A stretch of DNA of 64,000 nt from positions 84,149-148,148 of the forward strand of contig CAJJBY010000009.1 of the NCBI GenBank assembly GCA_905182545.1. Reading direction: 5' to 3'. The position numbers and the translations under genes are program-made. Origin of the DNA: an uncultured Candidatus Puniceispirillum sp. GTDB taxonomy: Bacteria > Pseudomonadota > Alphaproteobacteria > Puniceispirillales > Puniceispirillaceae. Every line of letters begins with the position of its first letter. The stretch's first letter is position 1. Positions 24,599-32,744 of this stretch are shown one piece after another. Below the pieces are notes generated by a model. The model did not search any database. It saw only the letters and a program-made list of their open reading frames with translations, and had not been told where the DNA came from.

Positions 24599-25708
24599 TT
24601 GCCTGAAGACCGCGCCCAAGTTACTTATAGTTATCAAACCGACCAAGATGGAGACATCGCCTTGCCCGCATCCACCCCTTTGCCCTCCTCGGGCAAAACT
24701 AACGAAACCAACGGTGAAAATTCCCAGATTTGGGTGATTAGCGATGGCACGGCAGGCATGCGGCTGCAGGCAATTGCGCTTGGCGATGCGTTGATCGCTG
24801 CCGACATAACAAACCAGACCAGCCTTGCCGATATCATCAGTAAACCATCTTGGTGGCTTCGGCACTTGCCGCGGCTTGTTCCTTTCCTGCCGAAAACCTT
24901 GTTATCGTCTTGGCTTGGGTCAATTGCCGGTCGCCTAAGCAAGGACAAACCGGCAATCATCATCACTTGTGGTCGGCGTATGGCGGGAACTTCGATCGCC
25001 CTCAAACAGCTTTCAAAGGCACATGCGGTTGGCACACGCACAATCCATATTCAAGATCCGCGCTTGCCGCCACATTATTTTGATATTTTGATCGTGCCAC
25101 AGCATGATCCGGCACGCGGCGCAAATGTCCTAACAAACATGGCATCGTTAAACCGTCTTGATATGCCTAAGATCGCCGATGCGGCAAATCAGCTTGGCAA
25201 GAAATGGCGCGCCCTTCCCGCGCCGCGGGTGGCGGTGCTGCTTGGCGGGGCCAATCGGCGCTATGATATTTCGGCGATCATGGCAAAGGATATGGCGAGC
25301 CGGCTTGCCGATTTTGCCACCAAAACAGGGGCCAGCCTTGCGCTGATCCCATCACGGCGCACACCTGCCAATCTTGTTACCCAGCTTACAGCCGCGCTTG
25401 GGCCATTGCCCTATGCGGTCATGGATCAGGCCGAAAATAACCCCTATCCGGGGATTTTGGGGCTAGTTGATGCGGTGATTGTCACATCTGATTCGGTCAA
25501 TATGATTTCTGAGGCAACAATCACCAGCCTGCCAATTCTGATTGCCGAATGGAAAAGCGAAACCGGCCGGATTGGCGCGTTTCATGATGCAATGATGGCA
25601 GCGGGGCATATTGCGCCATTGCGCGAGAAGATTCCGCAAGACGGCTTTACCCCGCTTTTTGAAATGCCCGCTATTGTAAAATCGGTTTTGGCGCGGCTTA
25701 ACAGCTAG
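24599..25708 (+). CDS. mitochondrial fission ELM1 family protein
   Basis: 369 aa; WVISDGTAGMRLQAIALGDAL, IHIQDPRLPPHYFDILIVPQHD, LIVTSDSVNMISEA-like motifs. Confidence 0.85.
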   Translation: MPEDRAQVTYSYQTDQDGDIALPASTPLPSSGKTNETNGENSQIWVISDGTAGMRLQAIALGDALIAADITNQTSLADIISKPSWWLRHLPRLVPFLPKTLLSSWLGSIAGRLSKDKPAIIITCGRRMAGTSIALKQLSKAHAVGTRTIHIQDPRLPPHYFDILIVPQHDPARGANVLTNMASLNRLDMPKIADAANQLGKKWRALPAPRVAVLLGGANRRYDISAIMAKDMASRLADFATKTGASLALIPSRRTPANLVTQLTAALGPLPYAVMDQAENNPYPGILGLVDAVIVTSDSVNMISEATITSLPILIAEWKSETGRIGAFHDAMMAAGHIAPLREKIPQDGFTPLFEMPAIVKSVLARLNS

Positions 25709-26824: not shown

Positions 26825-28029
26825 TCAAGATAGACTGGCAGTTACTTTGGCAATTCTTTGCATCGCATCGGCCAAAACATCATCCGCCGCGGCATAAGAG
26901 ATTCTGAAATAGGGCGACAGACCAAACGCAACTCCCGGCACCACCGCCACTTCACCCACCTCAAGAAGATAGCTGACAAAATCGCTATCGCTTTCGATGA
27001 TTTTACCATCAGGCTGCTTTTTCCCAATCAATTTGGCAATTGAGGGATAGACATAAAAAGCCCCTTCGGGGAGCGGGCAATCAATCCCGTCAATATTGTT
27101 CAGCGCATTACAAACAAGCTGGCGACGGCGGGCAAAGGCAGCGCAGTTTTCAGCCATGAAATCCAACGGCCCATCCAGTGCGGCAATCGCAGCATATTGC
27201 GCCATTGAATTCGGGCTTGATGTTGATTGCGATTGCACCTTTGCCATTGCCTTGATCAATGGCACTGGCCCACTGCCATAGCCAATGCGCCACCGGTCAT
27301 GCAATAGGATTTCGACACGCCATTTACGGTTAGAATACGGTCTTGCAGATCCGGCGTAATCGTTGCCATGGTCGTAAATTTGAAATCGTCATAGACCAGA
27401 TGTTCATAGATATCGTCACTGATCAAATGCAATTGCGGGTGGCGGCGCATGACCGCGGCAAACGCCATCAAATCATCTGCATCATAGCCAACCCCACCCG
27501 GGTTTGATGGGCTGTTCAAGATAAGCCATTTGCTATTTGGCGTGATGGCTGCTTCCAGATCTTCGGCGCTAATCTTCATGGGATTGGCACCGCTTCCCTT
27601 CACAAAGACCGGTTTTGCCTCGCAAATTTCGACAATGCCGGCAAAGCTAACCCAATAGGGTGTTGGGATAATCACCTCATCACTTGGGTTCAAACTGGCC
27701 ATTAACGCGTTAAACAAAACCTGCTTGCCACCGGTGCTAACCGTAATCATATCCGCCGTGCAGCTAACGTTGTTTTCACGCGCAAATTTCCGGCAGATCG
27801 CTTCTTTTAATTCAGGGATACCGTCAACTTGCGTATATTTCGTTTTGCCTGCCTTCATCGCTGCAATCGCAGCATCCTTAATATGCTGCGGCGTATCAAA
27901 ATCAGGCTCACCAGCAGCAAGCCCAATCACCTTGCGGCCTGCGGCTTTCATATTCAATGCCATGTCGGTAATCGACACTGTTGGTGATGGCGCGATGCGG
28001 TTTAGCCTGTCCGAAATAAGGCCCATTGA
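26825..28029 (-). CDS. aatA: aspartate aminotransferase-like PLP enzyme, one frameshift near 27288-27296
   Basis: ORF 27256..28122 (MGLISDRLNRIAPSPTVSITDMALNMKAAGRKVIGLAAGEPDFDTP...GVSKSYCMTG) is continued by 26825..27304 (WRIGYGSGPVPLIKAMAKVQSQSTSSPNS...). Confidence 0.92.
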
Positions 28030-28137
28030 TCCGGTCTCCTTTTCCCTTTCAAATTTATGGGGTGCTTTGTGGTTTAGGACAAGTGCTTTTCGCCGCGCCC
28101 CCTTTCTTCTTTGGTCGAACATGCCTATCTTAGGGGC

Positions 28138-30267
28138 ATGAACGAAACCAGTAACGACAACCTCATTATCACCCGATCAAGCGGCCCGGCAAATTTTGAC
28201 CTAAACTCAGAATTTAAACCAGCTGGTGATCAGCCAACCGCCATTGCCGAATTGATCGAAGGCATTCAAACCGGCGAACGCGATCAGGTTCTGCTTGGGG
28301 TGACAGGATCAGGCAAAACCTTTACCGCCGCGCATGTCATCCAGCAGATCAAGCGGCCAACGCTTATTCTGGCACCAAACAAAACATTGGCAGCCCAGCT
28401 ATATGGCGAGATGCGGTCGCTATTCCCCAATAATGCAGTCGAATTTTTCGTTTCCTATTATGATTATTACCAGCCCGAAGCCTATGTGCCTCGATCCGAT
28501 ACCTATATCGAAAAAGAGTCGTCAATCAATGAGCAGATTGACAGGATGCGCCATTCGGCAACCCGCTCCCTTCTTGAGCGTGACGATGTCATCATTGTCG
28601 CGTCGGTATCATGTATCTATGGCATTGGTTCGGTTGAAACCTATTCCAGCATGACGATGAAACTCACCACTGGTGAAACTGTTTCACGGCAAGATTTACT
28701 GCGCCAGCTGACCGAGCTTCAATATCGCCGCAATGATACAAATTTTGTGCGTGGCACATTTCGGGTTCGCGGTGACTCGGTTGAATTATTTCCAGCTCAC
28801 CTTGAAGATAGCGCATGGCGCATTTCGCTTTTTGGCGATGCGATCGAAGCCATTTTTGAATTTGACCCGCTAACCGGGTCAAAAAATGCGACATTGGATA
28901 GCATCACGATCTTTGCCAATTCGCATTATGTGACGCCGCGGCCAACCTTGCAGCAAGCCTGCAAACAGATCAAACAGGAACTCAAAGGCCGTATTGCCGA
29001 ATTCACCGCCAATAATCAGCTTCTCGAAGCCCAGCGCATCGAACAACGCACACAATTTGATGTTGAGATGATCGAGGCGACTGGTGCTTGTGCCGGTATT
29101 GAAAATTATTCGCGCTATCTTTCCGGTCGTGGGCCGGGCGAGCCGCCGCCAACGCTGTTTGAATATCTGCCAGAAAATGCGCTTTTGATCATTGATGAAA
29201 GCCATGTCACGGTTCCCCAGCTTGGCGCGATGTATAAAGGCGATTTTGCGCGCAAATCAACCTTGTCAAATTATGGCTTTAGGCTGCCATCATGCCTTGA
29301 TAACCGGCCTTTGAAATTCGAAGAATGGGAAGGATTCCGGCCACAAACCATTTTTGTTTCAGCCACCCCGGGCAAATGGGAGCTAGAGCGAACCGGCGGT
29401 GTCTTTAGCGAACAGGTGGTAAGGCCAACAGGGTTGATTGATCCGAATTGTGTTGTCCGGCCAACGGTCAATCAGGTTGATGATATCATTGCCGAATGCC
29501 GTGACGTTGCCGCCAAGGGTCAGCGGGCGCTAATTACGACCCTGACCAAAAAAATGGCCGAGGCCTTGTCCGAATATATGTATGAATCAGGATTGCGCGT
29601 TCGCTATCTCCATTCCGATATCGATACGCTGGAACGGATCGAAATCATGCGTGATCTGCGCCTTGGTGTGTTTGACGTGTTGATCGGCATTAACCTGCTT
29701 CGTGAGGGGCTTGATATCCCCGAATGTTCGCTTGTTGGCATTCTGGACGCTGACAAGGAAGGCTTCCTTCGGTCGCGAACATCACTTATCCAAACCATCG
29801 GGCGCGCCGCGCGAAATCTTGATGGCCGTGTTATCCTTTACGGCGACCGCGTGACCGATTCAATGCAATATGCGCTGGATGAAACCAACCGGCGGCGCGA
29901 ACGCCAAACAGCCTATAACATCGCCCATGGCATTACGCCTGAATCGGTTCGCAAAGAAATCGCTGATGTTCTGGATTCGGTTTATGAACGTGGTGATCAT
30001 CTAACGCCGCAAGCTGGTGCCAAATCAGGCGATCTGATCGGCAGTAACTTCAAAACCGTGCTTACTGATCTTGAAACCAATATGAAAGCCGCTGCCGCTA
30101 ATCTGGAATTTGAAGAAGCGGCGAGGTTGCGCGATGAAATTCGCCGCATGGAAGCCGCCCAGCTGGGCCTGTTTGAACCCGGGGTTCCATCCGCCATTGC
30201 CGAAAGGCATGGGTTTCCTGCTGGCACCCCCGGCGCGCCAATTAAAAAGCGTGGACGGCGACGCTAA
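28138..30267 (+). CDS. uvrB: excinuclease ABC subunit B
   Basis: [19 protein letters not shown] Walker [38 protein letters not shown]. Confidence 0.97.
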
Positions 30268-30848
30268 GGCTGATAAAGATCAAAGAACCAAGGCGTCACA
30301 CCGCTTTGCGCCAATCGCAAGAATCACCGTAAAACAGCCGCTAATCACCAGTGGTTTTGCACAAGTTCTGCAAAAATGCCTTGATTCGGTTAGGTGACTT
30401 TAAAATTTACGCCGATTGAACGTCTTTTTGCCCTTGAAATATATTAACTATCTGTAATAATTATGTTTTAATTTTATGCCTATTTTTTAGGCAAAGGGTA
30501 ATTTTTCGTAGAAAAACAGTACGCCATAAAAAAAATTAGAGGTTTTTCCACAGGTTTATCCACAGCAATCGGGGAAAACAATTTTTACCATTTCCGAAGA
30601 TGAAATCTAGCTGATTCGCAAATTCCACATTCGCGCAGCTAGACGGTAACCATATCCTTGTATTCGGGCGTAAATCATCGATTGATCATAGATCATTCTC
30701 GGTCGAGGATCATCGGCATGACTTGAAAATCGCCTCATTCCCGACTGCGGCAATGACTTTTCTTGGGAAATTTTTTATACTGAACCTTTCATACGCCCCG
30801 AACGCCGATCGCAATTCTTCACCCCGAAACGCCGCCAAACCCCAATAG
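30268..30848. other. long AT-rich intergenic region with DnaA-box-like sites (candidate replication origin or regulatory locus)
   Basis: About 580 bp without a supported gene; TTTTCCACA at 30544-30552, perfect TTATCCACA at 30556-30564, AT-rich block ~30400-30545, GATCAT x3 at 30684-30713, inverted repeats 30478-30492 and 30606-30643. Confidence 0.4.
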
Positions 30849-32744
30849 GTGAGACATAAAGTGGAAGACACACCAAACATGCCACCAAATTTGAAACGCG
30901 GCATTGCCTATTTGAAAACCGAGCTTAAGACCTTGCCAAGTCAGCCTGGGGTTTACCGCATGCAGAATGCGGCTGGTGAGGTGCTTTATGTTGGCAAGGC
31001 GCGCAATCTTGTTCGCCGTGTCACAAACTATACCCAACCAAATCGCCTATCCAACCGGATCATGCGCATGGTTGGCGAAACCCAAAAATTAGAAGTGATT
31101 GTCACAAAATCTGAAATCGAAGCGCTGCTTCTTGAGTCAAATCTGATCAAGAAAATGCAGCCACGATATAATATCCTGCTTCGTGACGACAAAAGCCTGC
31201 CGCAAATTCTGCTAACCGACGATCATGAATTTGGCCAATTGACCAAACATCGTGGCCGGAAAAACCGCAAAGGCGATTATTTTGGGCCATTTGCCTCGGC
31301 CGGATCGGTCAATCGCACCGTGGCCGACCTTGCCCGCGCTTTTATGCTTCGCACCTGTTCTGACAACGTGTTCGCAAGTCGCACACGCCCCTGTTTGCAA
31401 TATCAAATCAAACGCTGCTCAGGGCCTTGTGTTGGGCTTGTCACCCGCGAAGATTACGCCAAGCAAATGGCGCAAGCCCGCCGTTTCCTTAATGGCGAAT
31501 CTGCTGATGTGCAACGCGAATATGCCGCCCGCATGCATGCGGCGGCTGAAACGCTGGAATTTGAAACAGCCGCCATCTGGCGCAACCGCATTCGCGCCTT
31601 GACCGGCATTCAGGCCAATCAAGACATCAATCTGCCAAGTGTTAGTGATGCTGATATCATCGCTGTGGCGCGAAGTGGCGAGCGAAGCTGCATTCAGATT
31701 TTCTTTATTCGTGGCGGATCAAATTATGGCAACCGATCCTATTTTCTGACACATCTTGCTGATACCCCAGCCAATGAGGTGATTAGTGCCTTTATCGGCC
31801 AATTTTATGAAGATAAAGAACCGCCTGCCGAAATCATGCTTAGCGAAATGCCCGAAGATCACCGCCTTCTAAGCGAGGCATTGACCCGTAATGCAGGCCA
31901 TAAGGTCACGCTTAGCTGTCCCGTGCGCGGCAATCGGCGCAAAGTCACAACAATGGCGCTTAAAAATGCCGAAGAAGCGCTTGCCCGCCATCTTGCCAAT
32001 GCATCATCACAACGCCGTCTTTTGCGCGAACTGGCAGTGGCGCTTGATCTGGGTGAACCACCAACGCGCATTGAAATTTATGATAATTCGCATATTCAAG
32101 GCAAACATGCGGTTGGCGGCATGGTTGTTGCGGGGCCGGAAGGTTTCGAAAAAGGTGCCTATCGCCGCTTTAACATCAAGGATGAAGGCAAATTTGCAAC
32201 CGCCATTGGTGATGATTTTGCCATGATGCGGCAGGTCATTCATCGGCGATTTTCACGCGCCTTAAAAGAAGATGCCGACCGCCAGTCGGGAAATTGGCCT
32301 GATTTGCTGTTGATTGATGGCGGGGTTGGCCAGCTATCGGCCGTGCATGAGGCGCTTGATGATCTTGGGCTTGTTGATCTAAACGTCGTTGCCATCTCAA
32401 AAGGGCCTGACCGGCATGCTGGACGCGAACAATTTCATATCCGTGGCCGTGCCAGCTTTACCCTCGCACCCAACAGCGCAGCGATGCATTTTTTGCAACG
32501 GCTTCGCGACGAATCACATCGCTATGCCATCGGCACGCATCGCGCCAAACGAACCAAGACCGAGTTCACCAATCCATTGGACGCTGTTCCAGGCATTGGG
32601 CCAAAGCGCAAAAAGGCGCTTTTGGCGCATTTTGGCTCGGCGCGGGCGGTTTCTGCCGCTGGGCTTAGCGATTTAGAAGCGGTTGAGGGAATTTCGAAAA
32701 AATATGCTCAACAAATCTATGATTGGTTCTATAGTGGCTCTTAG
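30849..32744 (+). CDS. uvrC: excinuclease ABC subunit C (start could be GTG at 30861)
   Basis: LPSQPGVYRMQNAAGEVLYVGKARNLVRRVTNYTQ GIY-YIG domain; C-terminal HhH PGIGPKRKKALLAHFGS. Confidence 0.97.
   Translation: MRHKVEDTPNMPPNLKRGIAYLKTELKTLPSQPGVYRMQNAAGEVLYVGKARNLVRRVTNYTQPNRLSNRIMRMVGETQKLEVIVTKSEIEALLLESNLIKKMQPRYNILLRDDKSLPQILLTDDHEFGQLTKHRGRKNRKGDYFGPFASAGSVNRTVADLARAFMLRTCSDNVFASRTRPCLQYQIKRCSGPCVGLVTREDYAKQMAQARRFLNGESADVQREYAARMHAAAETLEFETAAIWRNRIRALTGIQANQDINLPSVSDADIIAVARSGERSCIQIFFIRGGSNYGNRSYFLTHLADTPANEVISAFIGQFYEDKEPPAEIMLSEMPEDHRLLSEALTRNAGHKVTLSCPVRGNRRKVTTMALKNAEEALARHLANASSQRRLLRELAVALDLGEPPTRIEIYDNSHIQGKHAVGGMVVAGPEGFEKGAYRRFNIKDEGKFATAIGDDFAMMRQVIHRRFSRALKEDADRQSGNWPDLLLIDGGVGQLSAVHEALDDLGLVDLNVVAISKGPDRHAGREQFHIRGRASFTLAPNSAAMHFLQRLRDESHRYAIGTHRAKRTKTEFTNPLDAVPGIGPKRKKALLAHFGSARAVSAAGLSDLEAVEGISKKYAQQIYDWFYSGS

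Follow-up and report, generated by a model that had tools for sequence, protein, structure and literature searches.

The window, a 64,000-nucleotide stretch of a 2.0-Mb genome assembled in 13 contigs, carries uvrB and uvrC on one strand, separated by a spacer in which a search for convincing open reading frames, small ones included, found none (Table 1). As an earlier note on this DNA had described, the spacer holds an AT-rich block (approximately 30395–30540; 146 bp, 73% AT) that exceeds every other segment of that length in the window, followed by TTTTCCACA and TTATCCACA, the sole exact TTWTCCACA matches in the 64 kb. A 15-mer that the note had read as a hairpin, GCCTATTTTTTAGGC, is also present, as are the inverted repeat TCTAGCTG (30606)/CAGCTAGA (30636) and all three GATCAT copies (30684, 30691 and 30708). 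Conservation across the order and class extends to the boxes, the 15-mer and the AT-rich region. The inverted repeat and the GATCAT triplet are broken or gone already in the nearest relatives and look incidental.

Table 1 Features of the uvrB–uvrC region in the window
Feature	Position	Strand	Observation
uvrB	28111..30267	+	NCBIfam NF003673, 1056.7 bits
IHF-type site TAACTATCTGTAA, degenerate	30445..30457	+	TAAnnnnTTGATW with 3 mismatches; box III lies 99 bp downstream
Fis-type palindrome GCCTATTTTTTAGGC	30478..30492		Perfect fit to GnnYAnnnnnTRnnC; 66 bp upstream of box III
DnaA box III TTTTCCACA	30544..30552	+	Exact match; 18/19 random loci have a direct box 3 bp from box II
DnaA box II TTATCCACA	30556..30564	+	Exact match; perfect box on uvrC strand in 19/29 random loci, on other strand in 0
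DnaA box I CGGGGAAAA (TTTTCCCCG on minus), inverted, degenerate	30570..30578	-	Inverted box at gap 5 in 16/19 random loci
GATTC, CcrM-type GANTC site after core	30613..30617		Conserved in order relatives
Promoter-like hexamers TGACTT-16-TATACT before uvrC	30754..30781	+	Read by eye; present in nearest relatives
uvrC	30849..32744	+	NCBIfam TIGR00194, 551.8 bits; gene linked to module across class

The earlier note did not include a third box (CGGGGAAAA), which is inverted and, in this genus, degenerate. Together the boxes form a core with the layout III–3 bp–II–5 bp–inverted I, contiguous within 35 bp. The 15-mer is a Fis-type palindrome upstream of this core, and the AT-rich block contains an IHF-type site that is weak in this genus but conserved in position, with relatives showing 0–2 mismatches at 95–100 bp (for example, TAAAATATTGATT at locus L025 and TAACTTATTGATT at locus L315). 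In 23 of 27 order relatives, compared with 7.1 expected, a GANTC site follows the core at a distance of no more than 90 bp, and its offset is mostly constant within the genus of the window; the enrichment was weaker in the class sample (11/22 versus 5.7 expected). It is possible that methylation controls the module. The hexamers before uvrC may represent its promoter. Two other candidates for the spacer were set aside: the window's single Rfam match is a tRNA, and the 15-mer, with its fixed spacing to the boxes, fits a protein-site palindrome better than an RNA element; a CtrA-type TTAA-N7-TTAA site seen by eye in the AT-rich block was inconsistent across relatives.

Elsewhere in the window, two overlapping minus-strand open reading frames in different frames (26825–28122) match one class I/II aminotransferase (Pfam PF00155 226–353, the C-terminal part, and 2–232, the N-terminal part), and they may be either a frameshifted gene or a sequence error. 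A 369-aa open reading frame at 24599–25708 had no NCBIfam hit and matched Pfam 'Mitochondrial fission ELM1' along its length. The rest of this genome (G000) contains no second copy of the module comparable to the one before uvrC, the next match scoring 18 bits versus 110. A perfect TTATCCACA lies just upstream of dnaA (G000:C7:309310-309318), as for DnaA autoregulation. Two perfect TTATCCACA boxes also occur on the same strand at G000:C8:36983-37058 (L264), but their 67-bp separation does not fit a DARS-like arrangement.

Comparison of uvrC-upstream spacers from order relatives revealed one conserved stretch, which comprises an AT-rich motif, TGCCTA...TAGGCA, two boxes and then cGgGGAt. This stretch was missing from the one family f4 spacer that was read (L039), and in family f3 the boxes were present and the palindrome was lost. 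A sequence profile built from 18 order-relative spacers (R1) was run on a class-wide sample of 241 genomes, of which 172 gave a match (E ≤ 0.01). In 24 of the 27 distant loci examined, uvrC adjoined the element, with different genes on the opposite side. For a random test independent of this profile, uvrC was found by protein search in 39 class genomes, drawn evenly and nearly all from different families, and 29 uvrC-upstream regions were analysed. The full triple (no more than 7 mismatches in 27) was found within 700 bp upstream of uvrC in 22 of these 29 regions, always on the uvrC strand, leaving about a quarter of the random loci in which the core was missing. Shuffled uvrC-upstream regions gave no triple at six or fewer mismatches (0/580), and the uvrC bodies contained none comparable.

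When a perfect box II was taken as the anchor (19/29 loci), an inverted box with up to three mismatches lay at gap 5 in 16 loci, and 18 loci had a direct box at gap 3, with other gaps between 0 and 20 almost empty. GnnYAnnnnnTRnnC was found 65–67 bp upstream of box III in 15 of the 19 perfect-box-II loci, and nowhere else between 15 and 124 bp. The IHF consensus was looser: the random class sample gave only a mild cluster near 97–103 bp, and an IHF-type site at 95–100 bp is carried by many copies from the order and from other classes. The distance between the core and uvrC varied from about 100 to over 400 bp. One alphaproteobacterial core (L123) reads TTACCCACA-AAG-TTATCCACA-GAAAT-AGTGGATAA.

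The module extends beyond the class. Matches were present in 177 of 299 genomes of a phylum sample (E ≤ 1e-4), other classes included, and of twenty loci taken from matching genomes, most had the same layout; the Fis-type motif upstream of the core is also found in other classes. In family f155, which belongs to another class, there are up to nine near-identical copies per genome of 2–3 Mb (L300–L308 of G311 and related genomes). These copies consist of the whole IHF-type, Fis-type and three-box module, and they are intergenic and dispersed beside unrelated genes, with none of those examined lying next to uvrC, uvrB or mutH. Module copies that occur without uvrC in other classes speak for a function of the DNA site itself. 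A scan of named genomes for the box II plus box I pattern identified loci upstream of uvrB in Photobacterium and Gilliamella, which is the DARS1 position, and a locus upstream of uvrC in a Rickettsiales genome.

The earlier note had proposed a replication origin or a DnaA-bound locus. The second part of this proposal holds up: boxes that recur across the class in a fixed geometry strongly support the view that the locus upstream of uvrC is a putative DnaA-bound site. The first part does not survive the analysis of GC skew. In the window, negative skew predominates to either side of the spacer, with no switch. We also examined four closed relatives from the same genus, family and order, using stretches sampled around their genomes. 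The skew minimum was near 1.45–1.50 Mb in G004 (uvrC locus at 0.73 Mb), at 1.9–2.03 Mb in G020, a family-level relative with a closed genome of 2,753,527 bp (locus at 2.42 Mb), at 2.43–2.57 Mb in G025 (locus at 0.40 Mb) and at 0.81–0.93 Mb in G031 (locus at 0.64 Mb). In all four genomes, the uvrC locus is 0.2–0.75 Mb from the minimum, intergenic and inside a replichore, and no sign change occurs there. In the stretches read near the G004 minimum (approximately 1.45–1.50 Mb, with 1490–1495 kb left out), there was no strong cluster of exact boxes. Although an AT-rich block next to tandem DnaA boxes, an IHF-type site and GANTC would be in keeping with a chromosomal replication origin, the core has three boxes only and occurs in as many as nine copies per genome in another class, and together with the skew this leaves an origin with next to no probability. 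The spacer is not oriC. The tandem boxes and AT-rich block are better explained by the geometry of a DARS (DnaA-reactivating sequence), because the 'hairpin' is a Fis-type palindrome and the AT-rich block holds an IHF-type site.

We propose that the spacer upstream of uvrC carries a DARS-type module of the Alphaproteobacteria, at which DnaA would be stimulated to release ADP, a reading to which we assign a probability of roughly two in three. The direct results behind it are the box geometry, the fixed spacing of the sites, the deep conservation upstream of uvrC and the position away from the origin; the nucleotide exchange, the binding proteins and the role in the cell cycle we infer from the literature on E. 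coli DARSs. In the proposed mechanism, the arrangement III–3 bp–II–5 bp–inverted I would hold a small oligomer of ADP-DnaA, with a head-to-head contact between its protomers at boxes II and I. The two upstream sites, the Fis-type palindrome at 66 bp and the IHF-type site at approximately 99 bp, would then drive the oligomer, through bending or contacts, to release ADP, and the resulting apo-DnaA could rebind ATP, such that the initiator is recharged away from oriC. DnaA bound to the module may also affect uvrC transcription. This genome encodes IHF alpha, and our search of it found no stand-alone Fis. Fis-type helix-turn-helix (HTH) proteins in the genome are encoded by open frames of 490 and 446 aa and by a 168-aa response regulator beside a sensor kinase. 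The response regulator (G000:C7:317136-317642; L270 1114-1620), which by eye is RegBA/PrrBA-like, is a candidate binder of the palindrome.

Some observations weigh against the DARS reading. Box I, which is treated as crucial in E. coli DARS work (PMC4585315), is degenerate in this genus, the IHF-type site in the window is weak, and the order of the Fis-type and IHF-type sites is unlike that of E. coli DARS2. Geometry alone is insufficient, as E. coli has 52 box pairs with a comparable arrangement and only two of these proved to be DARSs (PMC5835720). The stand-alone Fis that our search of this genome did not find, and the quarter or so of random loci without the core, count against the reading as well. 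The presence of the same element before uvrC across the class suggests that Alphaproteobacteria, too, may recharge their initiator on a dedicated DNA site. A broader version of this proposal, the odds of which we judge to be even, is that a class-wide DARS fixed upstream of uvrC is a branch of an ancient Pseudomonadota module, with an IHF site, a Fis-type site and a core at set distances, that it works without canonical Fis through another protein on the palindrome, and that it ties initiator recharging to replication of the repair locus.

The main rival to the DARS reading is a DnaA-regulated uvrC promoter. According to this explanation, the element is a regulatory region through which DnaA, IHF and a Fis-type protein tune nucleotide-excision repair to the replication cycle, without reactivation of DnaA. 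Across the class the element stays linked to uvrC and on the same strand, as such control would predict, and DnaA has been reported to repress uvrB in E. coli (PMC11317965). However, a core whose distance from uvrC ranges from about 100 to over 400 bp would be unusual for a promoter operator, the module is found away from uvrC in other classes, dispersed beside unrelated genes, and the spacing of the three boxes is that of a DARS. We consider uvrC regulation unlikely as the whole explanation, but the promoter region of uvrB is where E. coli DARS1 itself is located (PMC5835720), and we therefore keep the note's alternative, a DnaA-responsive uvrC promoter, as a possible second role of the module in addition to acting as a DARS. 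Still less probable, in our judgement, is a site that delays initiation, either as a passive decoy that titrates DnaA with high affinity or through a datA-like stimulation of ATP hydrolysis. A conserved cluster of DnaA boxes with an IHF-type site outside oriC, present in several copies per genome in one family, could serve such a purpose, yet titration alone could do without exact gaps of 3 and 5 bp and without an inverted box. In E. coli datA, moreover, the required IHF site lies between the required boxes (PMC5835720), whereas here it is outside the contiguous core.

In the open literature that we searched, DARSs are described in E. coli and other Gammaproteobacteria (PMC4451416, PMC4245941 and PMC6090056), and E. 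coli-proximal beta-proteobacteria are mentioned once (PMC5742627). This search found nothing on point about DARSs in Alphaproteobacteria or Caulobacter, or about uvrC with DnaA boxes. One review states that DARS1- and DARS2-like sequences are conserved in many proteobacterial species, without naming classes (PMC10380432), and the alphaproteobacterial element may therefore have been noticed before. For the model alphaproteobacterium Caulobacter, this review cites a replication-linked DnaA inactivator, HdaA (PMC10380432). A conserved candidate before uvrC makes the recycling of ADP-DnaA testable in alphaproteobacteria, as it offers a single 35-bp target that can be deleted in laboratory species, and it points to a missing Fis-type partner. 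Why initiation control should be linked repeatedly to the DNA repair genes uvrB, uvrC and mutH is a general puzzle.

Among known systems, datA resembles the window in having DnaA boxes and an IHF site outside oriC, but it differs in its box arrangement and in its opposite effect, which is ATP hydrolysis (PMC5835720). The two E. coli DARSs are closer. DARS1 and DARS2 share a common box spacing, with box I opposite to boxes II and III, and lie inside a replichore (PMC5742627), in the promoter regions of uvrB and mutH, respectively (PMC5835720); in the window, too, there are three boxes with box I opposite and gaps of 3 and 5 bp. The E. coli bioD–uvrB spacer, the site of DARS1, reads TAATACACA-TGG-TTATCCACA-GGAAT-AGTGGATAA. 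Like the window, DARS1 has three DnaA boxes in identical orientation with these gaps, and it too precedes a UvrABC gene in an intergenic position that is not close to oriC (PMC5835720). It differs in adjoining uvrB rather than uvrC, in having neither a Fis-type nor an IHF-type site where the conserved upstream spacing would place one, and in its less degenerate box I.

The region upstream of E. coli mutH reads TTCTTCACA-ACT-CTATCCACA-GAAAA-GGTGAATAA. On the side of box III it has a pair of IHF sites separated by 3 bp and, farther out, a Fis consensus. These sites fit the published IBS1-2 and FBS2-3 (PMC4245941), and we therefore took this triple as the DARS2 core. A second triple with identical 3-bp and 5-bp spacing occurs nearer mutH in the rppH–mutH region of E. 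coli K-12 (L262). DARS2 resembles the window in its core spacing and in the repair gene downstream, and possibly in having sites for IHF and Fis next to box III (PMC4245941). DARS2 has its IHF site closer to the core, at 87 bp, with the required Fis sites farther out, whereas in the window this order is reversed, with the perfect Fis-type site nearer (66 bp) and the weak IHF-type match beyond (approximately 99 bp). DARS2 also has extra DnaA boxes IV–VI. ColE1-type origins contain TTATCCACA-GAATC-AGGGGATAA, a sequence present in 830 plasmid records that we take to be the ColE1 DARS. This plasmid DARS differs from the window in being located on a plasmid origin, but it shares the combination of box II and an inverted box I across a 5-bp gap, with a box I of the GGGGATAA type that deviates similarly to that of the genus studied here.
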